DNA of 64,000 bases from the NCBI GenBank assembly GCA_028685185.1, contig JAQUEK010000002.1:118520-182519 (forward strand). The letters are read 5' to 3'. Under the pieces are notes generated by a model. It saw only the letters and a program-made list of their open reading frames with translations. It searched no databases and was not told where the DNA came from. The position numbers and the translations under genes are program-made. Below, piece by piece: positions 9,128-43,804 of the stretch (position 1 is its first letter; each line of letters begins with the position of its first letter). The stretch is from Candidatus Altimarinota bacterium. GTDB taxonomy: Bacteria; Patescibacteriota; Gracilibacteria; BD1-5; UBA2023.

Positions 9128-9328
9128 ATGAAAACTTTTAATTTTAATCAAGATTGTTCTAATACCTTAACAGCTTCTTGAAGTGTTCAAACTACTTCTT
9201 GTTATTATTCTTTTGATTATACTGAAACACGTGATTTCTTTTTTAATAATTTTCTCCTTGTTGTTATTTGAGTCTATATTTTCTTCAAAATTCTTAGGAC
9301 TATTTTAGATTTATTTTTTAATCGTTAA
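9128..9328 (+). CDS. Small membrane protein (66 aa), minor coat-like
   Basis: Polar, Cys-containing N-terminal half (CSNTLTASGSVQTTSC) and one C-terminal transmembrane helix (NNFLLVVIGVYIFFKIL) followed by basic residues ending FFNR. Topology with the N-terminus outside matches minor coat proteins inserted before virion extrusion. Family not recognised. Confidence 0.55.
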
Positions 9329-9333
9329 TAAAC

Positions 9334-11253
9334 ATGTATAAAAAAATAATCTTTTCTTTAATCTTCTTTATATCTTGATTTTCTCTTGTTTCAGCTTCTG
9401 ATTATATGCTTTATACTAATCATTCTCAAGGTGATAAATGTTATCGAAAATTAGCTTCAGATTTGACTACAAATAATGGTACTGCTATGACTACTGTTTG
9501 ATGTATTACTCCTTCCTATTCAAAAGATTGACAGTATATTTATTACTCTAATGTTTCGGATGGTTATAAATGTTATAAAAAAAATGCTAATGATAATTCT
9601 AATGGTACTGCGATTACCTCTAATGTTTGTTATTTTCCTGTTGAGTCTTTTGATTGAACCAAAATTTATTATCGTAATGCTACTGATTGAGATAAAATTT
9701 ATGTAAAAAATTCTAATGATTCTTCAAATTGATCTGTTTTTATCAATTATGCCTTATCTAATCCTGAAATTTCTCCTGATTGAACTAAAATGCTTGTTGA
9801 TTCTCTTACTCAGTATTCAAGTTTTTGACAAATTCGTTCAATTTCTAATCCTTGAACTGTTTTATATCAATCTACTTATAATTGTATGGACGCTTCATAT
9901 TCTCCTGATTGAACTAAAATAATTTGTTCTAATTTACAATCTCCTACTTCAAGTAAACTTTATTTAATGGATTCTAATTTATCTTCTAATCCTAATTTTT
10001 TTTTAATAAATAATTCTTATTCTCGTTTTCCTGTTTTTACTCCTGATTCTAATTATGTTGTTTATACTTATTGAAATGTGTATTGAGTTTGTTACTATAA
10101 GGATATTTTTTATGGTAATACTTCTAATGGTTATGCTATAACAACTGATTCCTGCATGTATCCGACATATTCTCCTGTTCCAAATGCAACTTGTCAAGAT
10201 CAAATCCAAAATCAAGATGAAACTTGAATAGATACATGAGGTATTTGTGGTAATCAGACTTGTGCAATGCAAGAAACAAATATGAAATATATCTCATATG
10301 GTTATACCTGATCTTATAGTACTTATACAAATCAGATTTATTGATCTTCTACATGAGCTGAAAGTTATTTATTGATTCAAACCCCTCCCTCTAGTTATTC
10401 ATATTATAAATTTGAGGTTTGATCGTATAAAGCTGTTTGAATGGTTTTTACTTCACCTTTAAAAACTTTTGAGGATTTATTCAATTGAAATTTATCTTTT
10501 TATGTTCCTTGAAGTGTTCAAAGTCCTCTTGATTCTTTAAATTTCAGTAAACCATATTTAGAGCTTTCTTCTTATTCATATCCTATTGATTGGTTTTGGA
10601 TTAATTGATCTGATTGAACTATTGATTGAGAGAATTCTTCTGATTCTATAAAAGATTGATATAATTGTGTGTTTTTGCAAGATTGAAATTGAAATGAAAT
10701 AAAAGATCAGACTTGAAGAACTTGTTTTCCTGTTTGAACTACTGGTTTTTCTTTGACTAATCTTATAAAGCCTAATTCTAATTGAGAGTATATTCTAAGG
10801 ATTATGTTTAATCATAATATGCTTGATAAGAATTATAAAATTACTTGAATCGGTTATTGACATTATACTGATCAGTTTATGGAGAATTATGTTTGTAAAA
10901 ATAATGATACTTCTGAATATACTTTAAATTGAAATCCTATCACCGATGATAGATATGCCGAAATTACTTGAATTAATGATGAAATTAGAGAGTCTATTTC
11001 TGATAATCGAGTTAAAATTGATGATATTGATTTAAATACATATTCAATCAATAATGATATATCCATTAAATCTTTATTTACTTCTTGTCCTGCTTGATTG
11101 AAAAATATTGATATAAGTTATTTTTCTTTTATGACTTATAACCTTTCTGTTCCTTTGACTGATATAAATTTAAATCCATTTTCTTGAATGGCTTGTGGTT
11201 TAAAGTCTATTATGAATACTTATAATTATTTCAGAAGCAATGCTTTTAATTAA
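9334..11253 (+). CDS. Adsorption/minor coat protein, gpIII position, with PD40/TolB-like repeats
   Basis: 639 aa, the largest gene of the element, directly upstream of the gpVI/gpI-like genes, as gpIII is. A signal peptide (MYKKIIFSLIFFISGFSLVSA) is followed, over roughly residues 30-270, by repeated units of the form S/F-x-DG-T/Q-K/Y-I-x-Y (SKDGQYIYYSN, FDGTKIYYRN, SPDGTKMLVD, SPDGTKIICSN), the signature of TolB/PD40 beta-propeller blades. A Cys-bearing segment (ICGNQTC) and a long beta-rich C-terminal half follow. No clear C-terminal membrane anchor is seen; the next gene, a small membrane protein, may supply it. Dozens of UGA codons read as Gly. Receptor binding is inferred from position. 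Confidence 0.7.
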
Positions 11254-11267
11254 TAACCTTTAGGATT

Positions 11268-11528
11268 ATGCAAATTTTTTGAATAACTACCACTGCTTGA
11301 AACCATGTATTTAATTTTGCAAGTCAAATGTGAGATATTTCTGAATATACTTATTGATTGTATTTTTGAGATATTATACTTTTGATTATGTGTTTTACTT
11401 TATTGTTAGCTTTGCTTTGAATGTGATTTAAAGCAAGTGATTTTTCTTCTTCTCCTGCTTCTACTGAAGAAAAACGTTTATCTAATCAGGCTTCTTATAA
11501 AGCAAGAATTGAGGCAAAATATAAATAA
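11268..11528 (+). CDS. Small membrane protein (86 aa), minor coat-like
   Basis: One strong transmembrane helix (GDIILLIMCFTLLLALLGMG) at about residues 33-55, then a polar Ser-rich and basic tail (SSSPASTEEKRLSNQ). It sits between the gpIII-like and Zot-like genes. Could anchor the adsorption protein in the virion or play the gpVI role. Confidence 0.6.
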
Positions 11529-11552
11529 TATTTATTTTTTAATTTTTAAATT

Positions 11553-11786
11553 ATGTCTGATGTTGTTCGTATGATTGTTTGAACGTTTATCGTTTGAATC
11601 TTAATTACTTTTTTTTGATGAGCTTTATATTATCTTATTTCTTTTTGAAAAATCTTTCTTGATACATTTTTATTTATAATGAAATTTCTTTGATATCATA
11701 ATTCTATAATGTGATTGTTTCTCGTTTTATTGTTTTGAACGTTGATTTTTTGAGCTATAAAATTTGTTAAATCTTTTATTTCATAA
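11553..11786 (+). CDS. Polytopic membrane protein (77 aa), gpVI-like
   Basis: Two to three hydrophobic segments with very high Gly content, mostly UGA codons (VGTFIVGILITFFGGALYYL, then LFLVLLFGTLIFGAIKF). Multi-span minor coat proteins immediately upstream of the Zot gene are typical gpVI candidates. Assigned by topology and position only. Confidence 0.6.
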
Positions 11787-11799
11787 ATAAATATAAAAA

Positions 11800-12597
11800 A
11801 TGGCTTCATATTGATTAGAGATAATAGTTTGAGCTTATGGAACTTGAAAATCTTTTTTTACTCATCGTTCTATAACAAATTGGTTTTGAAGAAATACTAT
11901 TCGTATTTGAAATTATTGTAGTCCTGATTTTCATTTGCAATTTAGAAGCGTTAAGGATTTGATTGAAATTTTACAAGCAATAAATAATTTTAAAAAAGAT
12001 CCTAAGAATCTTAAGCAAAAAATAGAGATTATTATTGATGAGTGAGCTTTATATTTTTGAAATAGAGAATTTAAAACATTTCCGAAAGGTCTTTTATCCT
12101 TTTTGGTTCAGTTAAGGAAATTAAACGTAAATACAAAAATTATTCTTCAGGATTTAAAAATGGCTGATATCACTTTCAGAAGACTTTGTTATAATGTTCG
12201 AAAATATTATGTTTGAATGTGATTTATTCGATTTTATAAGGATTTTGAGCTTTTAAGTGAAGACGCCAACCTTAATGATCCTATTAATTCTCTTGTTTCT
12301 CGTCCTTATTTTAAGCTTTGACCTTGGCTCACTGTTAAAATATTCTGATTGGTTACTCGTTTTTTCTGATCTAGTCTTTATGATACTAATGAGGTTATTT
12401 TGCCATATAATAATATATTAGATAATGAAAAATTATTGCGTATTTTTCCATACACTAAAAGAATTGAATCTGATGAGGATTATAAACAACTTATAAAAGA
12501 TAAGGAAAAGGCATTTTTTGAAGCTATAAAGCTCACTAAAAATAAAAAGCTTTATAAACATTACTTTGATATTTATAACTATAATTTACTTACTTAA
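11800..12597 (+). CDS. Zot-like assembly ATPase (inovirus gpI)
   Basis: 265 aa. Walker A GAYGTGKS at residues 11-18 (first and other Gly partly UGA), Walker B KIEIIIDEGALYF, and the segment LVQLRKLNVNTKIILQDL...ITFRRLC that corresponds to the conserved helix/arginine region of Zot (PF05707-type). A C-terminal hydrophobic patch (PWLTVKIFGLVTRFFG) may be the membrane-associated segment. These inner-membrane ATPases drive virion extrusion and are the most diagnostic inovirus gene. Located last in the structural block, as usual. Confidence 0.82.
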
Positions 12598-12606
12598 TTT
12601 TAAGTT

Positions 12607-12738
12607 ATGCAATATGTTTCATATGCTATTAAAGTCTTAATCCGGTCTTTAATTTTTCAATTAATCCGTAATCCGGTTTATATTTTAATATTGATTTTGA
12701 TTTTATTATATTTCACTTGACATTTAATCCTAAGATAA
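12607..12738 (+). CDS. Small membrane protein (43 aa)
   Basis: MQYVSYAIKVLIRSLIFQL... with a C-terminal hydrophobic helix (NPVYILILILILLYFTG). It closes the structural operon 9 nt after the Zot-like gene and runs into the terminator. Unknown role. Confidence 0.5.
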
Positions 12739-12767
12739 AATAAGGACTCCATGCGGAGTCCTTATTT
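12738..12767 (+). terminator. Strong terminator of structural operon
   Basis: AAATAAGGACTCC, loop ATGC, GGAGTCCTTATTT: a perfect 13-bp stem followed by T-rich sequence; active on both strands in principle. Confidence 0.9.
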
Positions 12768-12774
12768 GTTTTTT

Positions 12775-12814
12775 CCCCTGATTCCCCTGATTCCTTTGAT
12801 TCCCCTAATTCCCC
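12775..12814 (+). repeat. Tandem C-tract repeat (CCCCTGATT units)
   Basis: Four 9-bp units (CCCCTGATT twice, CCTTTGATT, CCCCTAATT) and a closing CCCC. The minus strand therefore carries four G4 tracts separated by 5, 14 and 5 nt, able to form a G-quadruplex. It lies in the second intergenic region of a phage that replicates through single-stranded DNA. Confidence 0.8.
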
Positions 12815-12903
12815 TTTTTTCCTTTCTTTTTTCTTATCCTCCTAATTTTTCCCCCGAAAATTCTCTAAGAATCGCTTTATTATTTATTGTTTTCAGAGAA
12901 AAC

Positions 12904-12941
12904 TACCAAAAAAGCGATATTTTTTATATCACCTTTTGGTA
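12904..12941. other. Large imperfect hairpin before the divergent regulatory region
   Basis: TACCAAAA (12904) pairs with TTTTGGTA (12934), and GATAT with ATATC inside; a competing pairing ATCGCTTT/AAAGCGAT starts near 12871. It also ends close to the stop of the minus-strand gene, so it may act as its terminator or as a replication/packaging structure. Confidence 0.45.
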
Positions 12942-12947
12942 ATTTAT

Positions 12948-13151
12948 TTATATTTTTTCGTTTAATTTATCTTTTATATCTTCTAATTGATTATTAATTA
13001 ATTTTTGTAATTCAATTAATTCTTTTTGCAATTCTATTCTTTCATTTATTTTCCAATACCAACATGTAATATCTCTAATTATATAAATAATAAATATAAT
13101 TCATAATATAGTTATTCAAAATATTATTGGACTATTTAATGCAGTAAACAT
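12948..13151 (-). CDS. Membrane/coiled-coil protein (67 aa), only minus-strand element gene
   Basis: N-terminal transmembrane helix (SPIIFGITILGIIFIIYII) followed by a charged coiled-coil (ERIELQKELIELQKLINNQ) to the end. Divergent from the ribbon-helix-helix-like gene, across 110 bp that must hold both promoters. An opposed gene next to a regulator in a prophage is often an immunity or lysogeny gene; here that is only a guess. Confidence 0.6.
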
Positions 13152-13261
13152 ATTTTTATTTTAATATTAATATCAATATATAATCATATTTTAAAATTAT
13201 TTGCAAATAATCGTATATAAATATACTTATTTTAATATATATACTTTTATTATAAAATATC

Positions 13262-13435
13262 ATGAATTCAGCCTTAAAACCTCAATCAGTTAGACTAGAA
13301 GCAGAAACAATAGAAAAACTTAAAAATCTTGAAATATCTCTTTGATGAATAAAATTAAAAACTTATGAAGATAAAATATCACACTTAATATGGTTTTTTC
13401 AGCACTATGAAAACAATAATTGACAAAAACATTAA
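13262..13435 (+). CDS. Ribbon-helix-helix-like DNA-binding protein (57 aa)
   Basis: The pattern LKPQSVRLEAETIEKLKNLE (short strand, then helix) with a second helix YEDKISHLIWFFQHYE resembles CopG/Arc-type ribbon-helix-helix repressors, which are dimers using the strand to read DNA. Stand-alone gene in the region that would control lysogeny. Similarity is by pattern only. Confidence 0.5.
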
Positions 13436-13592
13436 AATTAAATTAAAAAAACATTAAATTTATTTGACATTATCATTTTTATATATTATTATGTCTTTGT
13501 ACTTAAATATTAAGTGCAAAAGTTCTTTAACATAATCCGATATTTTTAGAAGATTACAAAAAAAATATCTTTATATCCTTATTTTTGTAATT

Positions 13593-14492
13593 ATGAAATA
13601 TGATAATTTTTTTATTGATAGTTTCCTTATTGAAAAACAAGTAAATGAGTGATTATCTTTAAATACTATGAAAGCATATAAAACTGTTTTTAATACTTTC
13701 ATTTTAAATGATTTTGTAAAAATTAATGATTCTGAAACTTATACAGATTATAATTTTAAAAGGTTTCTTTGAGAGTCTTTGACTCGATATAATTGGACTT
13801 CTTGGACTTATAACCGATATAAGAAGTGTTTAAAATGTTATTGTGATTTCCTTATTCGTGAATGATATTTAAAAGAAAATCCATTATTAAAGATTAAGAC
13901 TCGAAAGATTGCTCAAACCTTACCAAAGTTTTATAATCAAAAACAAGTCGATTTAATAATGTATACTATTAATAGGCTCTATTCTTGAAATGATTTTATT
14001 TCTGTTAGAAATAGGACTATTATTTATTTTTATTTTTATACCTGATTAAGACTTCATGAACTTATAGACTTAAAACTTACTGATCTTAATTTTGAAGAAT
14101 CCTGTTTAAAAGTAGTTAAATGAAAATGATCTAAAGACCGATTTATACCTATTATTAAAAAACTTGAAAATATCCTTTTTTTCTATCTTGATTATCGTTC
14201 TAAGCTTGATTTAAAAACTTTAAATCTCTTTACTACTAAATATGATTGAGTTATGCAACATCGTGATATTTACACTATAATTAATAAGCTTAAATCAAAT
14301 CTTGATTTTCCTTTGACTACTCATATGTTTCGACACACTTTTGCAACTGAACTCGCAAGAAACAATATCAATATTTTCAACATAGCTCAAATTCTTGGAC
14401 ACTCCAAAATTGAGACAACTAAAATATACCTGAATTTTAATCTTACAAGTGTTGCAAATTCTATAAATGCCATTGATATGTATAATTCCTAA
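13593..14492 (+). CDS. Tyrosine recombinase (integrase)
   Basis: 299 aa. An N-terminal SAM-like core-binding domain (roughly residues 5-100) is followed by the catalytic domain with all key residues: Arg153 in TGLRLHE, the Lys of GKGSKDR, His244 and Arg247 in HMFRHT, His270 in LGHS and nucleophile Tyr279 in KIYLN. Many UGA codons. It lies about 200 bp from the right att copy, and the target is a tRNA 3' half, as is usual for such enzymes. It should catalyse integration and, with or without a helper, excision. Confidence 0.93.
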
Positions 14493-14503
14493 TTTTTGTT
14501 ATT

Positions 14504-14656
14504 ATGTGAATTCGATTTAAACCTCTTGATATAAGTCCTTTTAATTTAGATTTATGATCATGATTTGTATTTGATTTTGAAGATGAAGAAGAAGTTGAAG
14601 AAAACTGAAAAAAGGTAAATAAAGAAAAACCTTTTATTGATTTCTCTTTATTTTAA
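14504..14656 (+). CDS. Small acidic protein (50 aa)
   Basis: MGIRFKPLDISPFNLDLGSG... with an acidic run (DFEDEEEVEEN) and basic C-terminal part; 11 nt after the integrase stop. It might be an excision/accessory factor by position, although most excisionases are basic. Unrecognised. Confidence 0.45.
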
Positions 14657-14689
14657 ATCTTGACAATTTGTTTAATTTTATGTATATAT

Positions 14690-14734
14690 CTGAAAAGCCT
14701 TGTGTCGGTAGTTCAATTCTACTCCTCGCCACCA
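14690..14734 (+). repeat. Right attachment repeat (att), original tRNA-Phe 3' end
   Basis: Exact 45-bp match to 4441-4485. Because the tRNA 5' half is at the left, this copy is the displaced chromosomal 3' end. Confidence 0.93.
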
Positions 14735-15360: not shown

Positions 15361-18300
15361 TTAGTCAGTAATGAATTCAGATTTCACGAATCAGATTCAG
15401 TCTTGCCACATGATTTCAGTGAATCAGTCGACAACATCCAATATGATGATTTTCTCTCAGTTGAATAAAGTTGTTTTGATCTTACTATCCGGATATGGTT
15501 CAGTCCTTACGAATACGCTTCTGGCAACTTTTATCTTCTTCCAATCAATGTTTGTCAAAGAATTCGCTTCATAGAATATCTGAGAAGGTAGAGTCCTATT
15601 CCTGTCGCTTTGATTCTCATCCCTAAGATATTTTGATCTTATGAATCAGTTGTATCAGTCGAATAGGATTTTACTCCATCAGTTAGATTGTTCATCCAGC
15701 AGTTCAACCTTATAGTTTCTAGGCAGATAACTTATAATCTTTGAGCTGAATGAATCGAATTCCCTTATTGCGTACGAATTTGCAACATTCAGAAACTTAT
15801 ATACTACAAGCTTAGGGTTCTTGATTATTTCGACTTGAGGATTCTTCAGTGATGAATCGATCGAAGGATTTGACACAGGAGTTCAAGAATTTTGGTTTGA
15901 ACCATTGTTTCATTCTGAAGGCTTGATATTAAGATTCTTAAGGTCTGTCAATCATTTTATAACAGCCTTGCTTCTTGTTATGACAAGAGAATTATATTCT
16001 TCCTTTTCTTTTGTAATTGAAGTATCTTTCAAAGCGGTTTCAGCAGTTGCTATGACATTTTCCCAAAATTTTATCTTGGAATCTATCGTAGGTAATTGAG
16101 GATAATTAGATTTCTTAGCTTCGTATATGAATCTCTTTATGGATTCGCTATTGGTCAATACTGAAGTGTTTGAGATAACAGATGGTTTTGTTCAGCATGA
16201 TGAGTCATAATAACTGTTTGAATAGTCACCATTCGGACAGCTATCTACAGATATAGAAGAACTTCCTCCACCACCTCATCAGTTATTGCTTATAACTATC
16301 ATATTTCAAGTCAATTTCACTACTGTGAAGTAAGAAAGGCTGTCTGTTCTGAAGTTGCATGTTTTAGCGCTATCAAGGATACATGTCCTATCAGGTACAT
16401 TTTGCTGCCATGTGTTTCAATCTGTTGATCTGAATATGTTTACCGTATCACCAGCAGCTCAATTCTGAACTTCAAAGTTTGCGATGAAATATCATCCGTT
16501 TATTCATACGGGCACATTTCATGAAACTGAAACCGTATTCAATATTGTTCAGCTATAGACTACCGTAGGAGTATTGAAAGAAGCGATAAGTCAAGTCAAT
16601 TCAGCAACAGTAGCTGATTGCGGAGCGTTCGGATCCACTAACACAGGAGATGTTATGACTCAATTCCATCAATTAGGGTAAGTCAAAGTAGTGTTTCATG
16701 GGATTGTGATATTCGAATTCAAAAGATTGCTTCAAGTGCTTGAATTGATTATCAAAGTGTTTCAGCTCATACTCAATGTATTGTTCACAGAATCTGTAAG
16801 GCTCAATGCGACAGAACCTGTCTGAACTATGGTTCATGAATTCGAATTCAGGCTTACATCAGTTGCAGTTGTGAAAGCTCAATTCGATGAAGAGATATTA
16901 CCGAAATCATCTTGCATCACAAGATTATAAAGATAATTCGTTCAGCTTAATAATGTATTGAAAACAGCGGTTCATGTATTGTTTACGATATTTCAGAAAG
17001 TAAGCTGAGGGATCGTATTTATGATATTGGTTCAATCAGTGATGCTCAAAGTTCAATTAGCGAAAGTGTTTTGATTGAAATGCGAATCATTGAATAGGAA
17101 ATTGAAGATTGCTCAGGCAACTGTTATATTAGTTATGCTGACACCGAATATCTGAGGCCCTGTAGTGTCGATGCTGTTCAATGCCGATACTACGGTGTTT
17201 GTTATATTTCAAAGGTTATCAGAAGAATCTATGAAATAATAATATGTCTGATTCGGAAGAAGTCATGGTATCACAGAAGAATGTCATGTTCATGATGTCG
17301 TACCGCTTGCAACAAGAGTAGAAAGAACGTTGGATCATGTTCATACATATAACGTGCTTGTAGAGAATTCATTCGTATTGAATGAATAATCCATATTCAT
17401 CACGATTCATGAAACATTAGGAATGACAACAAGATTGCTTAATGCAGGTCAAAGATTGTCATGTGTGATATCCAGAGTTACTCATGTTGAAGAATTTCAT
17501 GCAAGATCAACACTTGATCAATTCAATGTATTTATAGAATTCAGTATCAATGGGAAAGTAAGTGTATAATTTCAAGATGAATCTGCAATCGAGCTTATAT
17601 TGGAAACTCCATTTGAAAAATTAACCGTTGCTCAGGATTCAGTAGTTCATGTAAGTGTTACATTGTTTGTATTTATTGAAGCAGGAAGTGTATTTACGGT
17701 CAATATCGGTGCGATATCATCCTGATTTATCATAAAGCCTTGGCTTGCGCTTAATGTGGTCGCATCGGTTGCAGTGACTGAGATATTATTAGCTGAATTC
17801 AGATTTAACGGAACTATAACTGTAAAATCTCAAGTTACACTATCTCAAACCGTATTTATAGCAGCTCAGCTTCATCATGTTACTACAACATCTGCATTCT
17901 TCTTGGTATTTCATGTGAATGTAAATGTAGGATTTCTGGTAAAGCTATTTGCCACGCTCATATTAAGGAATATAACGACGCTATCATGAGTGATTGAAAC
18001 ATTTCAGTTTCATGAATTTCAAGCCGCATCAGTTGCAACAACTGAGATATTGTTAACAGAATCAGAATTAAGTGTTACAGGGATTGAGAAATTTCATGCT
18101 ATATCAGATACTCAGAAGAAGGTTCATGATCATCAGCTTATAACGATTGTCGAATTGCTTTCGGTGATTCAATCGATATTTACTATCTGATTGTTTGTTG
18201 TTTGTGATTGTGTAGAGATATTCACAGTAGGATACATATTATCCTGAGTGATGACCAGATTTCAGCTTACAATATTTCAGACCAAATCAGTTGAAGTGAT

Positions 18301-21300
18301 TATAAGATTATTAGAGGCATTCAGAGTCAGGCTTACATTTATAGAAAAATCTCATGCAGAATCCGGAGTTCAATTCGCAACGCTAGCTCATCATATTATC
18401 TGGATTGAAGAATTTGGTTTTGTGGATCATGTAAGAATTATGGAATTCTGGCTTGTAGATAATGAAGGTGTTCAGATTATCAAAGCATTCGGCACACTAT
18501 CTTCAGTGATAGAGACATTTGCAGCAGCTGATATGTTCAATGCTGGATCTGTTGCTATGACACTGAATGAATTCATTGCATCTTGAGATAAAGGAGTTGA
18601 TATGGAGAATATTCAAGATGAATCTGAAGCACCGTTTGAAACTGTTGTTCAGCTGCTTGTTATATTTATATCACTGTTCGGTTCAGTTGTTCAGCTAATG
18701 TTTATAGAATTCGCATTTACTATCGAAGGAAGAGGATCAAGAATCACATTTGGTGAAATGCTATCTTGTATAATCGTTACATTTCAAGAATTCGTATTAG
18801 AACCTGAATCTGTAACAATTATATGGAATGAATTTACAGAATTTATATCAAGCGGAACTGTAAATATCATGGATCATGTAGAATCAGTTGTTCAGCTTGA
18901 AACCAATATGGCTCAGCTAAATACCTCTGCAAGGATTCAAGATTCAGTCTGAACTGATATGTCAGCAGTTGTGCTGTTTGTAAAAGCAGGAGCGTTTATG
19001 ACCAATGGATTCGGAGTAAGCGTATCGCTGATTATAACAACACTTGAAGTTCAGATATTTCAAGCGACATCAGTAGCGCTGACAGAAATATTATTTACAG
19101 CATCTAAATCCAATGTTATATCAGAATTGAAATCTCAAGCTCAATCTGAAACAATATTTGTCACAGATCCTGAATTATCTATAGAAACGCTTATATTAGG
19201 CTCTGTAGTTCAAGCTATATTGATAGTCGCAGTATTGATTGTCTGTGATTGAGTCGTGATATTCACAATCGGTGCAGTGTTATCAACCGTAAGCCATCCA
19301 GGAACAGATTGTGAAACATTGTCATTCGGATCGGATCAAATGATATTATATAATCAATCAGAAATTCAATTCGGTACGGTTATAGTATTTATTGATCCAG
19401 CTAAAACTGATCTTATCACAAATCCTGAACCATTGGCTACGGCTGCATTAAGTTCAGCAACAGTGGAGACTGTCGTTCAAGTCAATACCAGATATATATC
19501 TCCGTCTTCATCTATAGAAACATTGGAAGTTGAACTAGCTCATGATTTCAATGTTTGAGCAGCATTTATAGGAGCAGAAGCTATCGGTGGAGTTATATCA
19601 AGGGCAAGTGATTGGTATATGAACGGAATTCAAGGAGTTGAAGCCGTGAGAGTAAGGATATTTGATCATGTCGATACTGTGACTCAAGTATTTGAATTAT
19701 TCATTATAGCGTCAGCAAGTCAACTTACTATTTCAGCAGCAGAATCTCCGTTTAAGGTAAGATAATCGTTATCGACTCAATCTATCACAGCCCTGAAAGT
19801 TATTCAAGCTCTAAAGATTCAGCTTGGTGTCATATCAACAACCTGTGCCACGGGCAATCAGTTTGCAGTGACTGTTATCGGTGTCGTAGAATTGATTATA
19901 CTGACATTGCTAGTGACGAAAGGAATTCATGCGATGTTGCTTGTAAGGTTAATCGTTCAAGAATTGAAGCTTGAAGTGACAGATCAGATTGCATTTATAT
20001 TTAAAAGAATCTGGTTAATTGTTGTGTTTTCATCAGTATCGAAATTTTGAAGGATTGAATTTCAATCAATGCTGAAACCGATGAAATCTCATTCCACTAA
20101 AGTAGGCATGACCATTTCGGTCTCTTGTTTCACGGCGACGACATTGTCTACCGTAGTTGCAGGAGATATCGAATTATCTATCGTAAAGCTTCCTATTGAA
20201 AACGGAACTCATGCAGTTGTTGCAGTGAAGACAAGATCGCTTCAAGATATATTCAGACTTACTCAAGTCGCTATGGAATCTACTTTGGATTTGAATGAAT
20301 CAAGTGTTTCTGATTCGCTTCAGCTGAAAACCTCAGTTATAAGATTTCAATCGATATTTATGCTAAGCATATCTCAAGCTATTATCGCTCTAGGCAATGT
20401 GATCGAGTCGACTTGAGCTTGAGCTGGAACGTTTGCAACCATGTTCACACTGTTTGTTGCGCTTGTTATGTTAAGTATTCAAGAAACGAAAGCTATTCAA
20501 GGAGTGTTTGAAGTTATCGTGAACGTTGAGTTTGCTGAATCAAATGAAGAATTGATTTCAGACAATGTATTTATCTTGTCAGATAAAGCCTGTAAGGTTT
20601 CATCCTTGCTTCATGAAAAAGATTGTACAAGAGTACTTCATGCAATATCAAGTGAAAGACTATCACCTGATGTCAATGTCCTTGAAACTGTTAATGTATC
20701 GACTTGTGAACCAGAATCAACATTAGGCTGTGAGTTAATTGAATTTATCGTTACTCAAGTTCATTGCAAAGAAGCTGAAAATCAAGTTCAAGGATTCTTA
20801 GATGTCAGAGTGAATTCACCAGAAGCTGTATTGACGACAGAAGATATTTCAGGAAGATTTGTGATCTGAGAGTTCATTAACGACAATGTTGTATCAGTAT
20901 CTGTCGTAAATGGTTGATTTATTATATTTCAATTTATATTTATAGAAATATTATCAGTGCTTTCGATAGGATATGGAATTGTCAGCGTATCAACTTGTGC
21001 TACTCATGTGACATTCGGATTAACTGAAGTCGGAGCTGTAGTATTCTTTATCTCAGTCTTGTCGATAGTGAAAGCGTCTCAGGCGTTTTTTCCTTCTATC
21101 ACAATTCAAAGAGATCCTGATGCAGTTGCGTTAACTGTAGTTACATTTGCATTAATCTGAGAAATGATGTTATTCAATGTTGTAAGGCTATCTGAAGAAA
21201 AGCTTCATGTTGAAGTGATTCAATTCACAACTATCGTAATCTCATCTCATGGAACGAAATTGGAAGGTAAATCGATTTCGCTTTTCTGTGTTGCTCATAC

Positions 21301-23832
21301 GAAATTTGAGATAGTAAGGATTGGAGCCTGAACATTTGAAAATGAAGCGGTTCATAGGTTGAATGAATATCCGGCATCCTTTGCAGTCAATGTGAAAGTT
21401 CTTGACGGAATATCGACAGAACTATCAATTCAAGGCAATGAATTCAAAGTATTATTAAGGTTTATTAGAGAAGTTATGCTATCGCTTGTGAAATTCTGAA
21501 TAACAGGGATTCAATCGACTGTAACTGAGAATGTATCTCAAGAAACGAAATCTCTAGGAATGACAAGTGAATCAACCTGAGCCACTGCAAGCTGAGGGCC
21601 TGTCAGATTTCAGCTTATAGAACCGGAAGTTCAGTCGAAAAAATTTATATTATTAAGATTATCCTGGATTCAAGATGTCTTGTAAGTTGCTATGACTCAA
21701 GTTCAGCTAGTGTTCAATATTCAATTGTTCGGATCGCTTATTCAACTTATTCATCTCAATAATGCAGCGATTGTAGAAGTTGAACTGATTCAGCTTATAT
21801 CTAAAATCGCCGAATCATCGCTACAATCCGTATCAACAGTAACTGATCATGTGCTGAAATCAATCGTACAGCTTCAGATGATAATATTTGTACTGTCAGC
21901 TGGAACTGAATCTATACTGATATCGAGAGATGCTTTAACTTCTGGAATGCTTCAAGTCATTGTAATTCATGTGAAAGTCGATCATGAGATTGAAACATTT
22001 GATATTGAAAAAGGAGTTCAAGCAGTTGTTGCATCCAGAGTAAAAGTTTTGGTTCATATATTTAAAGTGCTATTTACCGTAGCAACATCGTTCATCTTAG
22101 TATTAAGCTCATCTAAGGTAGTGTTTGCATCAATGCTGAAATTTTGCAAGATATCTGTTCAATCAACATTAAGTGAGATATTATCTCCTGAAAAAAGATC
22201 TGATGGTATGCTGAAGATATTTCTTTGATTAACTGATTTTGAGCTTGCCTGCAATATCGTAGGATAAAGGGAATTCAAAATTGAAACGTTTGAGACATTG
22301 AAATCAACTCATGCAATGCTTGATTCCAATGTTATTGAATTCATAGCTGTATCAGGAGTTGCAATGATATTAAGAGTTCATGAATTTATCTTTGCAGCGA
22401 GAGAATTCAAAGTATCATCTGCAGTAATTGCAAAATTCTCAGAAATCGTATTTCAGTTTATCACCAAAGATGCGACATCTCAAGACTGAAAAGGCCTTTG
22501 TAGAGCGATTATGGATTTCTTCTTCTGAGCAATGACATTTGATATAACTCAACTGCTGGTTAGGTCTGAAGAAATGAACAATCAAGATGCAGTGAATGGA
22601 GTTCCTGGTTTTGTGGAAGAAATAGTAAGTGTCCTATTGGTAAGATTTACAGAAGAGGTGACATCAGCAACATCTGCGATTATATTATCACTTAGGTCAT
22701 TCAATGTATTATCGTTTGTACCGTTAAATCATTGTGATACATCAATTCAATTCACTGAGAAATGAATGATATCTCAGAAGTATACATCTCTTGGAACTGT
22801 GATATGATCAATCTGTGAAACAGCTTCAATATTAGGGATTGAATTAATAGAATTTACAGTTCAACCTGTTATATCGACCTGAGAAACAGTAAAAGGAGTT
22901 CCAGGAATCTCTGAGGTTATTGTTATCTCATTTCCAGAAACAGAACTGCTCACTTCTGGCAATGCATCGATCTGGTCGCTTAGGCTTGAAATCGTATCAT
23001 CGCTATCTCATTGGAAAGATTGTATTGTAGGCGTATTTGAATTTATTGTCAGGGTTATAGTTTCATCAGAATATATCTCTCTTGGGAAAGTTATCTTTTC
23101 AACCTGAGAGACAGGAATAATATTTGGAATAGGATGAGCTACATTTATTCAGTTAGATGCGATATTCAAGTTTGACATTCAAAATCAGATTCATGGAGTC
23201 TTCGCTATAAGATTGATAGTATTTGACGAACTGTCGTATGATCAGCTAGCATCTGTAAGAAGTGTTATCTTATCAGCAAATGCCTGCAAAGTCTCATCTT
23301 TGCTTCAGCTGAAATTCTCCAACACTCAAGTTCAGGAAATATTCATAACAAGAGTATCTCAATCAAAAAGATTCTGAGGGATTGCAACGTTTGATTCCTG
23401 AGCAACTGCAACTATATTCGGAACAGTTATATTAGGAATTATCGGTGACCTCGTAATCAGCAAATCTCAAATCAGATATGGGATTCAAGGGACATTTGCT
23501 GTAATGATCAAGGTTCTGTCAGTAGAGTCATAGTTTGATGATACCGAGCTTACCAAAGAGTTTATGTTATCACTAAACAGGTCAAGAGTATTATCGCTTG
23601 TAGTATCGAATAATTGGGAAACATATGTTCAGTCGATGGTTATCTCAACCAAATCACCTGAAACCAAATCCCTTGGAACAGGTATTTTACTTACCTGTGC
23701 AACAGGAGCTACATTCGGTGTTGTAAGTGTTGAATCAAAGGAAGGTAAAGCAGCAAAAGTCAAGGTAGGTGCCACAATATTTAAGATAAGCGTAACAATT
23801 AGGGTTGAGCTTATCTTTCTTCTTGTGATCAT
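15361..23832 (-). CDS. Giant secreted repeat protein (2,823 aa), probable adhesin
   Basis: One uninterrupted code-25 frame of 8,472 bp. Signal peptide: MITRRKISSTLIVTLILNIV...TFA. The N-terminal third (read at 21.5-23.7 kb) is a tandem of about 95-100-aa beta-type units, each with AQV-x-K/S-I-x-I/V-PRDL and GD near its start and T-x-PGTPF near its end. Further on (read at 17.6-17.8 and 19.0 kb) come Ig-like units (VTLTGTTESGATV; ISVSATDVAGN). Then a Cys pair domain around STDGNTW...C...C at about residue 2,480, a GGGGG-SSS linker near 2,522, a CPNGDYSNSYYDSSC motif near 2,530, a helical segment, and two SH3b-like domains (about 2,670-2,740 and 2,755-2,823). No sorting motif or C-terminal membrane anchor is seen; the SH3b-like domains could bind cell wall. 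An in-frame ATG at 23859 is reachable only through a UGA codon and is less likely as start. Confidence 0.85.
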
Positions 23833-24194
23833 ATTTCATACATATGCTAGATTGATCATATTTATTGAATTAATTGGAAATAAAAAAAACAGACACTTTT
23901 TTGGCTTCAAAGTTATCTGTATATTTATTTTTGTTTTATTTGTTTCTTAAAAATAATTATTTTAACTGAATAGTCAAATTTATTATGTATAAAATATTTA
24001 TTTTGACAATAGTAACCACTTTCAAAAAAGTGATTTGGTTATAATAACGTTTACTCAAATATCGCGAAATTATTATTTTTAAAATTGAACTAAAAATTTA
24101 TACGTGATTTTTAAAGTATTTTTATTAAGCTGTTAAACCATTATATATGAATAAAAAGTGATATTAAATATTTGATTTTCAATTGAGAATAAAA
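23833..24194 (-). promoter_or_regulatory. Long leader of the giant gene
   Basis: About 360 bp without a gene. On the minus strand it holds a TTGACT-like box, a CACTTT-CAAA-AAAGTG hairpin near 24017-24043, the A-rich motif AAACAAAAATAAATAT (complement of 23921-23937) and then a terminator-like hairpin, all upstream of the ATG. Confidence 0.45.
23882..23920 (-). terminator. Terminator-like hairpin within giant-gene leader (attenuator candidate)
   Basis: On the minus strand ACAGATAACTTT, loop, AAAGTGTCTGT then eight Ts, 50 nt before the ATG. A hairpin plus T-run at this place could stop transcription before the coding region. Confidence 0.5.
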
Positions 24195-24226
24195 AAAAGC
24201 CGTAATCAAAGATTGCGGCTTTTCTT
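24195..24226 (-). terminator. Terminator of bacteriohemerythrin gene
   Basis: AAAAGCCGTAATC, loop AAA, GATTGCGGCTTTT (one wobble), 22 nt after the stop; A/T-runs on both sides. Confidence 0.85.
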
Positions 24227-24247
24227 TCTACAATGTGCCTGTTTTTT

Positions 24248-24643
24248 TTAGGTTGTCAGGAATTTTCCGAGCTTCTTGTCTGTTCCCTGAATATGCTTTG
24301 CCAGCCAGTTCTTAAGGAAATCAAGAACTGTTATGGAAATTGTCATTGTACCAGATTGAACTTTTTCGTTCAGTTCCCTTGCCTGTTTGAGTAGTTCCTC
24401 ATGTTCCCTCTTATGTGAGGGGAAGTCAGGATATGACTTCTGTGTCATGAGTTTTTCCTCAGTTGCGAAGTGGGCGACGGTATATGTCACCAGCTCCTTT
24501 AAAACCTTCTTGCAGACTTCCGAACCTTTTCCTGCCTTCATCGCATCATGAAGCTCGTTCAACGAATTGACAAGTTTCTGATGTTCCTGATCGATCTGCG
24601 GATGGCCGACGACTAGTGTTGAATTCCAGGTGATAAAAGCCAT
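24248..24643 (-). CDS. Bacteriohemerythrin
   Basis: 131 aa with the full set of diiron ligands of the hemerythrin fold: His in VVGHPQIDQEHQ (H and H-x3 pattern), HFATEE, SHKREH and HIQGTDK. It should bind O2 (or sense it) at a non-haem diiron centre in the cytoplasm. All six Gly codons are GGN and none is UGA, unlike its neighbours, and it has a strong Shine-Dalgarno (GGGGAG) with TTGATT-N15-TAATAT upstream and its own terminator. It therefore looks like a gene acquired from a standard-code bacterium. Confidence 0.95.
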   Translation of the reverse strand: MAFITWNSTLVVGHPQIDQEHQKLVNSLNELHDAMKAGKGSEVCKKVLKELVTYTVAHFATEEKLMTQKSYPDFPSHKREHEELLKQARELNEKVQSGTMTISITVLDFLKNWLAKHIQGTDKKLGKFLTT

Positions 24644-24721
24644 TATAGTCTCCCCTTTTTTCTTTCGTTTAAAAAGCTTGACTATATTAATAATATATAA
24701 AGAAAATCAAATAAAAATAAA

Positions 24722-24745
24722 AAACTCCCCTTTTCCAGGAGAGCT
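24722..24745 (-). terminator. Terminator of lipoprotein gene
   Basis: On the minus strand CTCTCC, loop TGGAAAA, GGGGAG then TTTTTTATTTT; stem of six with one wobble. Confidence 0.55.
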
Positions 24746-24760
24746 TAAAAGAAAAAACTA

Positions 24761-25453
24761 TTAATTAGCAGGAGTAGGTGCTGGATTCAAAACAGGAGTT
24801 CACGCAGCATTAGGTCATTTTATGCCGTTATTCTTCTGCATTGCAATAGAATCCTTACACATCTTTTTCTGACTATCTGTAGATATCTTATCGCAATATT
24901 TGTCATCCTGTGAAGCCATTGCAAGATTGAATGATGCTTGATTTATACAATTTTCCTTTGTTGACATCATGGGAGGCAAAGCTGATCATGAATTTGTTTT
25001 AGGTGTTTTGATCACATCACAGATAGATAGGTCTTTTTTCTTAATAGCTAAACTCATTGCTGATTGTGAAATACAATTATCCTTATTCTGTTTCAAACTA
25101 TCACATAGCGCAATATTTCAAGTCTTATCAACCTTCGAAATTATTATTCCTTGCTTACAGAATTCTACAGCCATAGAATCGCTAAGGTCATCACAGACAG
25201 ATTCATCATTCTTTGTTCTGGCTCTTTCATTCACAGCTTGACTAAGGCACATGTTTACACTATTGGCAAGACAGTTTTCCATTATGGTGCTTTCTTTATA
25301 TTCGGCTTTGATTTTAGAATACACTTCATCAAATGAAACTCAAGAATTTGCCAAAGCTGGATTTGCAGAATTGTTTTCACTTTGTATTTCAGACTTATTG
25401 CATGAAACAACCAGAAGAGTTGTAGCAAGCAATAATAATATTTTCTTTCACAT
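24761..25453 (-). CDS. Cys-rich secreted lipoprotein (230 aa), unknown
   Basis: MGKKILLLLATTLLVVSC is a lipoprotein signal with lipobox VVSC; the second codon is UGA. The mature part has regularly spaced pairs of cysteines in segments of the form C-x(10-12)-C (ENCLANSVNMCLSQ, SVCDDLSDSMAVEFCKQG, LCDSLKQNKDNCISQS, YCDKISTDSQKKMCKDS), i.e. a helical-hairpin disulfide repeat of about 40 aa. Probably membrane-anchored and exposed; function unknown. It uses UGA as Gly, so unlike the genes on both sides it is native. Confidence 0.75.
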
Positions 25454-25533
25454 AGAATAAAAGTTATTAAATAATGACGGAAATAATAATATATCATTTT
25501 TTTAAAAAACAAAATTATTATTGAGATAATATT

Positions 25534-25570
25534 AAAGACGCCCTCTTACGAAGGCGTCTTCTGTTTTTTT
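25534..25570. terminator. Terminator between cheW and lipoprotein gene
   Basis: AAGACGCC, loop CTCTTACGAA, GGCGTCTT. T-run is stronger on the plus side, but the hairpin sits 40 nt after the cheW stop. Confidence 0.7.
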
Positions 25571-25609
25571 GTGTTCATTTATACATTTCAATCTTTTTTG
25601 CAGTAGAGG

Positions 25610-26107
25610 TTATTCAATCAATGCAGCTGCAACATCTGGTGGAAAAACTTTTTTCAGATCAAGAAGGATGATTAGTTGATCATCACGATTTATAACCCCT
25701 GCAATGCTATCCTGATCAAGACCACCGGATGTCATTATCGGTGGTGGCTGAATCTCTTCGCCAGATATCCTGATGACTTCGGAAACACCGTCCACTGTGA
25801 AACCTGTCAGTTCACCATTGACATCCATGACAATGATACGGGTTTGACTATCATCGTCAATATCAATGAGATTGAATTTTCTCCTCAATGAAATTATCGG
25901 GATGACTTTGCCACGTAGATTAATTATACCATCCACGTAAACTGGTGTATTAGGCATTTTCGTCAATGTCGGCTTACGTATGATTTCACGCACCGTAAGG
26001 ACATCAACACCATACATCTCATCTGCAAGAATGAAGCTCACCAACTGGATCAGTTCGTGGCTGCCGGTTTTGCCATCATCTTTTACTGCGGGCATATTTC
26101 CTTTCAT
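25610..26107 (-). CDS. cheW: CheW chemotaxis scaffold protein
   Basis: 165 aa, one CheW domain: IQLVSFILADEMYGVDVLTVREIIR, PVYVDGIINLRGKVIPIISLRRKF and the C-terminal LIILLDLKKVF. CheW couples chemoreceptors to the CheA kinase, yet no CheA, CheY or receptor is present in the window. About 14 glycines and not one UGA codon; Shine-Dalgarno GGAGGA 5 nt before ATG; GC-richer than neighbours. I infer recent acquisition from a standard-code, probably proteobacterial, donor. An internal start (MPAVKDD) with AAAGGA upstream is possible. Confidence 0.93.
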   Translation of the reverse strand: MKGNMPAVKDDGKTGSHELIQLVSFILADEMYGVDVLTVREIIRKPTLTKMPNTPVYVDGIINLRGKVIPIISLRRKFNLIDIDDDSQTRIIVMDVNGELTGFTVDGVSEVIRISGEEIQPPPIMTSGGLDQDSIAGVINRDDQLIILLDLKKVFPPDVAAALIE

Positions 26108-26424
26108 ATTTTCCTCCGATCTGATTTGTTTTCCTTAAAGCAAATATAGACACATCAACCAAAATTAACCTACCACACTCCCCTTTCCTGAGATTTTAAT
26201 AATCAGCCATGGCCAATTAGAAATGTATATTAATGAGCACGATTTTTCCCCTTTTTTTATTTTCCAGTCTGAACTGAAAAATTATCTCTTTATAAAAATA
26301 TAGATCTTAAAGTCAAAAGATTTTTATAATAACATGAAAATCAAGGAATTATTTATATAATATGGTTGCTATTTTATAGAAATATGTAGAATCTAACGAA
26401 TTGATATCTTTAACTTTTTTTAGG

Positions 26425-27234
26425 ATGAAAATATACTATCTTTGAGAATTATGAGCATATTCGCATATTGCTTGAACAATAGCCAAAAAGAACCTATGAG
26501 ATAATGTTGAATTGATAAATCTGCCATCATTTTGAGATATATGGAACAGTATATCGGTCTGAAGCATATGAGTGGTTCCCATTGAAAATTCATATGCAGG
26601 ATCGATCCATGAAAATCTGTATAATTTCCTAAGATACGATTTCAAGATCATATGAGAGATAAAGCTTGAGATAAACAACTGCCTTATTTCAAAAGAAACG
26701 GATATATCTAAAATAAAGACTGTATATTCGCATCATCAGGCATTATCGCAATGCTATGAATTCATGAAGGAATATTCGATAGAATGAATAAAATCATCAA
26801 GCACAGCAAGTGCAGCAAAGATGGTAAGCGAATCTGATGAAAGATGAATCTGAGCCATTTCATCAGAGCTTTCTGCTGAAATATATTGATTGAACATCTT
26901 GGCAAAATGAATCCAGGACCAGAAATGAAACACAACAAGATTCTTCATAATCGCCCATAAGGATGAGAAGATAGAATATAGCGATAAGAAAAACAAAGTC
27001 ACCATAGTATTCGAGGCAAGGAATATTCCAGCTTCGCTATATAAATGTTTATGAAGCTTCGCTACAAATTCTATAAACCTTGCAAAAATAGAATCGCTTC
27101 CGAGTCTGAAAGACCCGTTTTCATACATGTTTTGGCTTGATTTCGAAGGAAACCTCTGAGAGGAAAATGTAAAAGAAGCATTGAAGGAATTACAATATTT
27201 CACTAAATCATTGAAGATATTAGGCGAATACTAG
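26425..27234 (+). CDS. pheA: Prephenate dehydratase
   Basis: 269 aa. The catalytic part (residues 1-180) shows MKIYYLGELGAYSHIAG, VVPIENSYAGSIHENL, SSTASAAKMV and the key GNTTRFFII motif (the catalytic T-R-F). A C-terminal ACT domain (residues 190-269) has IPASLYKCL and IESLPSL where Phe-binding enzymes have GAL and ESRP, so feedback control may differ. It converts prephenate to phenylpyruvate for Phe synthesis. Many Gly are UGA, so it is native. Free-standing here, with no other aromatic-pathway gene in view. Confidence 0.92.
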
Positions 27235-27314
27235 GATTTCCTTGTTAATAAGATAACCCATCCGCCCTTTGGGCAAGTTCCCTTTATGGGGTAAGGAAAG
27301 TAGAAAGATATTTT

Positions 27315-28430
27315 TTATCTCAAAGTAATCTCAACTATTTCTGATCTACTGTTTGTTCTCATGGCAGGTCACCAGGTACTGACTCATATAGAAGTGAATA
27401 TCTGGAAATCTCATATCTTTGTAAGTCATAAATCATGTCAGGCGTATATTATCGATGTTATTAAATTAAATGGAAATAATTGTCATCTATGTGTATGTCC
27501 TGATAATTGAAGGTCGATTCATGCATTTTTCGCTTCATCCAAATGCATAGGATTATGATAAAGAAGTATTTTTGGCTTATCGGAAGAAAGTTTAAGGTTT
27601 GAAAATGTTTTCTTGAAATCCTTGAATTCTCATCTTAAAGGATAACTCAATCATATGATTTCGATTCAATCAATATCAAGTTTTTCATCATCAAGTATTT
27701 TCACTCAGGTATTCTCAAGAGATTTGAGAGCATTATCGACTCAAAGATATGTTTCATGGTTTCAAGTGACAAAAAATGTTCATTTCTTTGTTTTAAGATT
27801 ATCCAATGGTTTTACATATTTATCCAGATGTCAATCCATTCAATCAAAAAGATCTCATACGATAAAAACCGCTTCAGGATTTATTATATTTATCTTATCT
27901 ACAACTTTTTTCATAAAATCATCATTATAGATATTACCCAGATGCACATCTGATATCATGACGATTTTCTTATTCTTCCAGCTGTCAGGGAGATTCTTAA
28001 GTTTTACAGAAACTTCATTTACCTGCGGAGACAATGCATTGAATATTCAATACGATGAATAGACAATACATAGAAATATCATGATTCATCAGGCATAAAC
28101 CTTATAATCGATGAATCAGTATTTTTTCAATATGAGATCGATTATAACAAGCACTCATATGAACATATTTATGTTAACCAGGAATCAAAGCCATAATCAT
28201 GAAATGAAATAAGCTCATCTTGAAAACGGATTATCAAAATAATGCGTTAATATTGAAGCTAAGATAAAGCTTATTCAGAGTATGAAAAGAATTCATCAGA
28301 TATAAATCTTAACATTATGGTTCGAGATATTGAAAAACTTTATAAGAAATACATATATGGAAAAATTTCATAGAAACAGCACTGAAACAAGAACAATGAG
28401 AAACATCGAAGCGAATATTATTGAGTTCAT
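27315..28430 (-). CDS. Membrane-bound calcineurin-like metallophosphoesterase
   Basis: 371 aa. Four hydrophobic helices fill residues 1-140, then a phosphoesterase domain with all metal motifs: DVHLGN, GDLFDG, GNHE, YHNP and GHTHRGQ. This matches the YkuE-type family (D-x-H, G-D-x2-D, G-N-H-E, G-H-x-H). It probably cleaves a phosphodiester at the membrane, perhaps of lipids; the substrate is unknown. Gly of the metal motifs are partly UGA. Confidence 0.88.
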
Positions 28431-28517
28431 ATTAATGTTTTAATCAATTAATGATGATATTGTAATGATTTTTGATTTTAAATCTACTAAACTGATTTTT
28501 TATTGAAAATAATATAT

Positions 28518-28545
28518 TTGACAAATGGTTAATAATTTCTATTAT
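28518..28545 (+). promoter_or_regulatory. Promoter of the Cys-rich small protein gene
   Basis: Perfect TTGACA (28518-28523), 16-nt spacer, TATTAT (28540-28545), 50 nt before the ATG. Confidence 0.7.
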
Positions 28546-28594
28546 ACAAATTAATTGTAGTTAATCCTATATGTATGTTCAAAAGGAGGACAGC

Positions 28595-28750
28595 ATGAAA
28601 GAAGGAAAGAAAAGGAAGACACGGGTCAAAGTCAGAAAAGTCAAACGTAACTTTGATACTGCATGTTGCAGAAGAAAACGTTATAGCAACGGCTGTAGAA
28701 GCGAGAAAGCAAAGGGTAATAACCCTATCTGCAAGAATTGCCCCAAGTAA
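28595..28750 (+). CDS. Small basic Cys-rich protein (51 aa), UGA-free
   Basis: Preceded by a near-perfect Shine-Dalgarno AAAAGGAGGA. The N-terminal half is almost pure Lys/Arg (KEGKKRKTRVKVRKVKR); five cysteines follow (C24, C25, C34, C46, C49; the last pair CKNC). Could bind a metal and nucleic acid, but I do not recognise it. No UGA; three Gly are GGN. With its own consensus promoter and terminator it is an isolated cassette between two recoded host genes. Confidence 0.75.
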   Translation: MKEGKKRKTRVKVRKVKRNFDTACCRRKRYSNGCRSEKAKGNNPICKNCPK

Positions 28751-28777
28751 CATCTTTTGAATACTTTTTCAGCATAA

Positions 28778-28806
28778 AAAAAACGGCTCTCGCGAGCCGT
28801 TTTTTA
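28778..28806 (+). terminator. Terminator of Cys-rich small gene (and lepA)
   Basis: AAAAAACGGCTC, loop TCGC, GAGCCGTTTTTT: perfect 12-bp stem, symmetrical, so it can also end the convergent lepA transcript. Confidence 0.92.
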
Positions 28807-42874: not shown

Positions 42875-42890
42875 GCTCCCGGAAGGAGCT
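42875..42890 (+). promoter_or_regulatory. Leader hairpin copy 1 with GGA in the loop
   Basis: AGCTCC-CGGAA-GGAGCT, then CAAAAAATA. Shares CTCCCGGAAGGAG with copy 2 at 43245-43257 while the closing pairs differ compatibly. Confidence 0.6.
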
Positions 42891-42926
42891 CAAAAAATAT
42901 AGGAAAATAACTAAGGAGAATTGCTC

Positions 42927-43139
42927 ATGCATACAACACTTCATATCATCATCCAGTATCAGTTCATAATATTTTCGGTATGTAATTTAATTTTGTTCTG
43001 TGTAATCGGCTATCGTAAATCGAAGAATTATTCGGCAATGATGTTCTTTATCATAAACACATGGCCTGTGAATTTCATTTTTGTTACATGCATGGTATAT
43101 AAATATCTAAATCATGATATAATATACCAAAAAAATTAA
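42927..43139 (+). CDS. Small membrane protein (70 aa), UGA-free cassette gene 1
   Basis: Two to three hydrophobic segments (IIIQYQFIIFSVCNLILFCVI and MMFFIINTWPVNFIFV). Shine-Dalgarno AAGGAG 8 nt before the ATG. No UGA; stop TAA. The hairpin leader lies just upstream. Function unknown. Confidence 0.7.
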   Translation: MHTTLHIIIQYQFIIFSVCNLILFCVIGYRKSKNYSAMMFFIINTWPVNFIFVTCMVYKYLNHDIIYQKN

Positions 43140-43155
43140 TGGTTACATAGCTACT

Positions 43156-43242
43156 ATGACTCTGTTATCTATTGTTGCAGGGCTCATCGGATACTGGATA
43201 GGAAAATTTATCCGAAGGATCAGGATTGTTCCAGAAGAATAA
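43156..43242 (+). CDS. Tiny membrane peptide (28 aa), cassette gene 2
   Basis: MTLLSIVAGLIGYWIGKFIRR...EE: one hydrophobic helix followed by basic residues and two glutamates. It lies between cassette genes 1 and 3 and is followed 2 nt later by the second leader hairpin. The three Gly are GGN. It has no strong Shine-Dalgarno; real but short. Confidence 0.45.
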   Translation: MTLLSIVAGLIGYWIGKFIRRIRIVPEE

Positions 43243-43244
43243 AA

Positions 43245-43257
43245 CTCCCGGAAGGAG
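43245..43257 (+). promoter_or_regulatory. Leader hairpin copy 2
   Basis: ACTCC-CGGAA-GGAGT followed by CCAAAAAATA, 43 nt before the start of cassette gene 3. Confidence 0.6.
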
Positions 43258-43299
43258 TCCAAAAAATAATTGGGAGTATACCCAAAATTGGAGAATTAT

Positions 43300-43653: not shown

Positions 43654-43673
43654 AATAAAGCTTTATTAAGGTT

Positions 43674-43702: not shown

Positions 43703-43755
43703 TGTGGTTGGGAGATGATTTTTCCCAAAAACATTTGCATTTTTCTGAAAAATAT

Positions 43756-43796: not shown

Positions 43797-43804
43797 AATT
43801 AATT

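Follow-up and report, generated by a model that had tools for sequence, protein, structure and literature searches.

The 64,000-nucleotide stretch of DNA analyzed here (the window) comprises bases 118520 to 182519 of a 284-kb contig (C4; GenBank JAQUEK010000002.1) in the assembly GCA_028685185.1 of a Candidatus Altimarinota bacterium, a genome of 1.17 Mb in 8 contigs. This genome is labeled G000 in what follows; its relatives carry labels of the same form (e.g., G011), and their genera are labeled g11, g12, and so on. Between positions 24195 and 28806, genes for a bacteriohemerythrin and the chemotaxis protein CheW and a 51-codon open reading frame (ORF), all three free of UGA codons, lie among genes that use UGA as a glycine codon. 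The original prediction, made from the sequence alone, ascribed them to single-gene transfers from an organism that uses the standard code, possibly a prey or host bacterium. The features in question are as follows.

24195-24224, minus strand: terminator hairpin 3' of the hemerythrin gene, followed by a T run (-12.5 kcal/mol)
24248-24643, minus strand: bacteriohemerythrin, 131 aa, UAA stop; 0 UGA and 6 GGN glycine codons; NF033749 (156 bits) and PF01814
24650-24655, minus strand: Shine-Dalgarno (SD)-like sequence GGGGAG of the hemerythrin gene
25534-25561, minus strand: terminator hairpin 3' of the CheW gene, 12 pairs, 6 of them GC
25610-26107, minus strand: CheW, 165 aa, UAA stop; 0 UGA and 13 GGN glycine codons, 5 CGT arginine codons; PF01584 (125 bits)
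26113-26117, minus strand: SD sequence GGAGG of the CheW gene
28583-28589, plus strand: SD sequence AAAGGAGG of the 51-aa ORF
28595-28750, plus strand: 51-aa Cys/Lys/Arg-rich ORF, UAA stop, probable import; 0 UGA and 3 GGN glycine codons

The coordinates and identities proposed earlier for the two named genes hold: the hemerythrin exceeds the NF033749 cut-off of 84 bits, which places its domain in the bacterial subfamily, and the PF01584 match spans residues 21-155 of CheW, nearly its full length. The motifs DQEH, HFATEE, HKREH, and HIQGTD, picked out by eye, are candidate di-iron ligands, and the lone hemerythrin could bind oxygen. For the 51-aa ORF, the searches returned no family match and no homologue. 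The hemerythrin gene adjoins a gene for a 2833-aa repeat-rich surface-type protein with 169 UGA codons (window positions 15361-23859).

Glycine codons and composition

Genes of the window require code 25 for their translation, the LepA gene alone having 39 in-frame UGA and 8 GGN codons. In G000, UGA encodes glycine and release factor 2 is absent: no match to prfB above the family cut-off was found, and the sole release-factor match falls below that cut-off and itself contains 16 UGA codons. The sequence sampled for the genome-wide counts consisted of all of contigs C3 and C4 (316 and 284 kb) and 20 kb of C5, ∼620 kb or about half of the genome, in which ARAGORN saw no tRNA with a UCA anticodon. 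Within this one family, UGA use ranges from none to about 80%; the LepA genes of relatives G018, G020, G025, G007, and G008, whose products are 73 to 78% identical to LepA of the window, are free of UGA.

The native baseline was taken from 504 genes on C3 and C4 (600 kb), called by amino acid composition, so that the choice of glycine codons had no influence on the calls. UGA represents 9071 of their 11611 glycine codons (78%), the remaining 2540 being GGN. The UGA share is bimodal: only 6 of the 460 genes with at least 6 glycines have a share below 0.2, namely, those for CheW (0/13), hemerythrin (0/6), a methyl-accepting chemotaxis protein (MCP2), a lytic transglycosylase-domain protein (SLT), a 248-aa protein of no assigned family, and one doubtful ORF. 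At the native rate, a complete lack of UGA has a probability of 2.7e-9 in CheW, 1.1e-4 in hemerythrin, and 0.01 in the 51-aa ORF, which with three glycines is too small for this test by itself. This per-gene test had been named in the original prediction, whose claim that all three genes lack UGA is borne out by UGA/GGN counts of 0/6 (hemerythrin), 0/13 (CheW), and 0/3 (51-aa ORF); among its glycine totals of about 6, 14, and 3, that for CheW should read 13. Its description of the intervening genes as UGA-rich is also correct, and their composition is native.

24761-25453, minus strand: native lipoprotein gene between those for hemerythrin and CheW; 6 UGA and 2 GGN, no SD
26425-28430: native prephenate dehydratase (plus strand) and phosphoesterase (minus strand) genes, UGA-rich (16 UGA/3 GGN and 29/2, respectively), no SD

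The observation of UGA-free islands is therefore confirmed. Codons other than those for glycine, or the GC content at third codon positions (GC3), also have a foreign character in CheW, MCP2, and a 97-aa protein discussed below; the z value for non-glycine codon usage in CheW is -2.96. In the hemerythrin gene, GC3 is 0.50, compared with a native mean of 0.32.

Translation signals and fossil stops

A second marker of foreign origin, independent of UGA avoidance, is the SD sequence. Under a generous test, in which GGAGG or AGGAG was accepted ahead of any of the first four candidate start codons, such a sequence was found upstream of 1 of 399 native genes and 7 of the 8 imports then tested (Fisher p = 2e-13); a fairer count leaves out the 51-aa ORF, which the earlier reader had chosen partly for its SD, and stands at 6 of 7. 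Looser motifs occur upstream of ∼2% of native genes. The strong SD sequence claimed for each of the three window genes is present in CheW and the 51-aa ORF (GGAGG/AGGAG class), whereas hemerythrin has only the looser GGGGAG. In six other genomes with heavy UGA use, the SD precedes 1 of 111 UGA-using genes and most of the UGA-free islands, G037 being an exception with SD sequences in 1 of its 5 chemoreceptor genes. The absence of SD sequences from native genes extends across the whole order. The G000 assembly yielded no 16S rRNA gene despite a stated completeness of 100%; in nine relatives (L141-L149), the 16S tail is AUCUCC or AUCUCU, reading GGACUAUCUCC(U)U or UCUCUU versus the usual CACCUCCUU. 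The canonical tail is ACCUCC. A native-side oddity is a 64-aa protein (G000:C3:252873-253067; L136:1873-2067), bS21-like by eye only, whose gene, unlike native genes, bears an SD (TATAGGAGATTCTA-ATG); it recalls rpsU of Flavobacteriales, which has retained an extended SD (PMC9976891).

Terminators are less telling. Those claimed to flank the window genes are present as the hairpins at 24195-24224 and 25534-25561, whereas the one at ∼28777-28805 sits between the convergent 51-aa ORF and LepA genes and may belong to the latter. Strong terminators are also found downstream of 14 to 22% of native genes and are therefore weak evidence for import.

A scan for SD sequences followed by UGA-free frames, combined with the UGA test, brought the number of imports in the ∼620 kb to 16, not counting a doubtful 170-aa ORF at C3:177764. 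Their 144 glycines include no UGA before the donor stop, in a set that was partly selected on UGA absence. Two further imports, at 42927-43139 and 43300-43653, are inside the window.

42927-43139, plus strand: 70-aa UGA-free ORF, import; SD CTAAGGAGAATTGCTC-ATG
43300-43653, plus strand: 117-aa membrane-protein-like ORF, import; the donor stop is the UGA at 43651-43653, and the code-25 frame continues to a UAA at 43788
43677-43696, plus strand: terminator hairpin GGCTCAGC-TTGC-GCTGAGCC followed by T5, between the UGA stop and the in-frame UAA

In 4 of the 16 imports, a fossil UGA stop lies 1 to 45 codons ahead of the UAA of the frame: in MCP2 (codon 571/573), SLT (227/259), a 78-aa ORF on C5 (79/79), and the 117-aa ORF of the window. 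In SLT and the window ORF at 43300-43788, that UAA is separated from the UGA by a strong terminator. Other genomes have comparable remnants, in CheW of G011 (165/167) and the MCPs of G061 (368/373), G031, and G070, the only UGA being at the donor stop; in the G031 and G070 MCPs, the terminator precedes the first usable stop. A UGA located where the gene and its terminator place the stop is as expected after transfer from an organism with UGA stops. Donor-type signals (SD, terminator, and UGA stop) have thus been retained, though CheW and hemerythrin end in UAA.

Within the island at 42880-43800, both the 70-aa and 117-aa ORFs have an SD-like site and are preceded by similar leaders (GGAAGGAG..TC.AAAAAATA), a resemblance in sequence which suggests that the two may be a tandem duplicate with a broken first copy. 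Apart from the coding similarity of two MCPs and of MCP1 with its G011 counterpart, no boundary sequences common to the islands were found. Elsewhere in the window, a low-GC (22 to 27%) stretch with many small UGA-using ORFs on the plus strand (4411-14700) begins beside a tRNA-Phe gene (4411-4485) and might be an integrated element coded in code 25.

Orphan chemosensory genes and the origin of the imports

The normal chemotaxis pathway is closed to a CheW that lacks CheA, and in G000 this kinase, needed for a working chemotaxis system, is absent: the CheW gene contains the only PF01584 domain in the genome, and no CheA of the usual architecture was found there. The original prediction had noted a lone CheW in a genome segment with no other chemotaxis genes; this is true of the window, but the genome encodes two MCPs on other contigs, both coded like CheW. 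One of them adjoins the gene for a 97-codon periplasmic protein; in G011 (genus g12), a 58% identical relative of that protein is encoded at a contig end, together with CheW and the terminal part of an MCP. UGA-free chemosensory genes without CheA were found in eight heavy-UGA genomes (G000, G011, G012, G031, G037, G049, G061, and G070); the MCPs of low-UGA genomes (G007, G008, and genus g11) are uninformative and were set aside. The MCPs of the eight genomes are mutually ∼30% identical (55% for G031/G070), with GC3 equal to or above that of every neighbor, which fits separate recent arrivals. One MCP of G012, with UGA at 21 of 24 glycines and a native-like GC3, fits an older arrival. In G031 and G049 (L075:5838-7395 and L076:5836-7771), separate, slightly overlapping frames encode the PAS domain and the MCP body, through a frameshift or as an authentic aerotaxis-type pair of genes. 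Chemosensory genes account for 2 of the 13 to 14 imports in the unselected C3 and C4 sequence; enrichment of such genes among the imports is only suggestive, because MCPs were specifically searched for.

The distribution of the window genes is patchy, in keeping with recent acquisition: of 99 relatives, 4 have a CheW domain, 6 have a hemerythrin (with at most 32% identity), and none convincingly has the 51-aa ORF. Relatives on plasmids are all below 50% identity, and a scan of GTDB with CheW returned a single distant relative. A phage route was considered and rejected, as no phage neighbors or phage relatives were found: hemerythrin, 97-aa, 51-aa, and CheW queries had no relatives in IMG/VR contigs, and a search of INPHARED phages gave weak matches only.

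Given the observed UGA avoidance, SD contrast, foreign composition, fossil UGA stops, patchy distribution, and orphan status of CheW, the CheW and hemerythrin genes and probably the 51-aa ORF are best explained, with a probability of about 0.9, as recently acquired single-gene units, each made up of an SD, a gene, and usually a terminator, from SD-using bacteria in which UGA is a stop. For the 51-aa ORF, the case comes mainly from its SD site. The proposal of transfer from a standard-code organism is thereby strongly supported by UGA-free glycines, SD sites, third-position composition, and fossil stops. Its accompanying explanation, that TAA stops need no recoding, fits the CheW, hemerythrin, and 51-aa genes but not the 4 of 16 imports that had a UGA stop and are now read through, one of them in the window and two running past their own terminator. 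As UGA-stop genes are imported too, UAA stops are only part of what permits transfer.

Several points weigh against this interpretation. The non-glycine codon usage of hemerythrin is only mildly foreign (z = -1.99; p = 0.03), and that of the 51-aa ORF not significantly so (p = 0.11). The closest relatives available are 44 to 48% identical, and no donor was found; trees of CheW and hemerythrin, built with few references, are without resolution, and the approximately unbiased test neither rejects nor supports a clade of the G000 and G011 CheW proteins (p-AU 0.12). No empty site could be recovered, the gene order around LepA not being conserved in ten relatives.

Among the alternatives, it is very improbable that single donor genes were joined to these metagenome-assembled contigs as chimeras or contaminants. 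The genome is a draft in 8 contigs, the chemotaxis cluster of G011 lies at a contig end, and some MCPs of other genomes are on short contigs; however, the at least 16 islands of one or two genes lie well inside contigs of 284 and 316 kb with UGA-rich native genes close on both sides, the same anatomy recurs in independent assemblies, and the estimated contamination of the G000 assembly is 1.37%. Still less credible is an old acquisition kept free of UGA by selection for expression or action in a standard-code host cell, a reading suggested by the recurrence of UGA-free chemosensory genes in the eight CheA-less genomes. The remaining composition of these genes is foreign as well, with GC3 not below that of any neighbor; several fossil UGA stops followed by a terminator before a usable stop look unpolished; the G012 MCP is UGA-rich; and genes unrelated to chemotaxis are coded likewise. 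A related idea is likewise very unlikely, namely, that the bacterium takes up chemoreceptor and CheW genes time and again and leaves them in the universal code since they are expressed or act in a standard-code host, whose chemotaxis array this CheA-less, host-dependent cell would tamper with.

Same-family relatives that hardly use UGA would be donors without any code boundary being crossed, and such genomes do exist (LepA is UGA-free in G018, G020, and G025), some with MCPs. This reading has even less to commend it: light- or no-UGA relatives have an SD before 0 of 57 genes, which makes them unlikely donors of SD-bearing imports, CheW is found in none of the low-UGA g11 genomes, and terminal UGA stops imply a donor that stopped at UGA. 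Least probable of all is chance or an expression bias toward GGN in short, highly expressed native genes: a gene read as that for EF-Tu does have below-average UGA use, but its 17 UGA codons at 41 glycines mean that high expression cannot account for zero UGA, the 0/13 of CheW would still have p ∼0.001 at that rate, which together with the p values above rules this reading out for CheW, and SD sites and fossil stops would be left unexplained.

Under the favored interpretation of recent single-gene acquisition, short fragments of donor DNA would have integrated. The imports are situated within long contigs and are flanked on either side by native genes. Donor codons other than UGA would mean the same in the recipient; as only UGA differs in meaning, genes ending in UAA or UAG would be translated unchanged. 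UGA-ended genes would be extended by a glycine and by a tail reaching to the next UAA or UAG, and where a donor terminator precedes that codon, the transcript would probably be stopless and require ribosome rescue. Over time, imports would be expected either to gain UGA and drift to the native composition or to be lost.

Comparison with known systems

It has long been asked whether an altered genetic code keeps foreign genes out, and here inflow occurs despite recoding. UGA-free glycines, SD sites, and unrepaired donor UGA stops provide a gene-by-gene record of arrival in a recoded lineage. Such a record makes it possible to measure the rate of transfer, the order in which genes ameliorate, and what read-through costs; a further question raised is why kinase-less chemosensory genes are repeatedly taken up. 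In the literature searched, which was mostly open-access, no precedent was found for fossil UGA stops or SD retention as import markers.

Scarcity of SD sequences and a non-CCUCC 16S tail have been reported for Absconditabacteria SR1 (PMC10783764). G000 is similar in that its native genes lack an SD and the tails of its nine relatives are of the AUCUCC/AUCUCU type; it differs in that the contrast between native and imported genes is used here to recognize foreign genes. For standard-code-compatible phages of Gracilibacteria and Absconditabacteria, dual compatibility has been proposed to serve host range (PMC10746230). Like those phages, the imports lack in-frame UGA, have backup stops near UGA stops, and are readable in both codes; unlike the phage genomes, they are isolated bacterial genes, some of them without a nearby backup stop.

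Another close parallel is Vampirococcus lugosii, a code-25 member of Absconditabacteria, for which 126 horizontal acquisitions were reported by phylogeny, together with the speculation that reading through UGA could protect against foreign DNA (PMC8080830). In both cases, the recipient is a recoded, host-dependent bacterium and the donors are distant organisms with the standard code; as far as searched, no chemosensory orphans like those of G000 were found described for V. lugosii. The imports of G000, unlike those acquisitions, are recognized by codon identity, by retained SD sites, and by fossil stops, and the G000 sequence shows the read-through that was predicted for V. lugosii.

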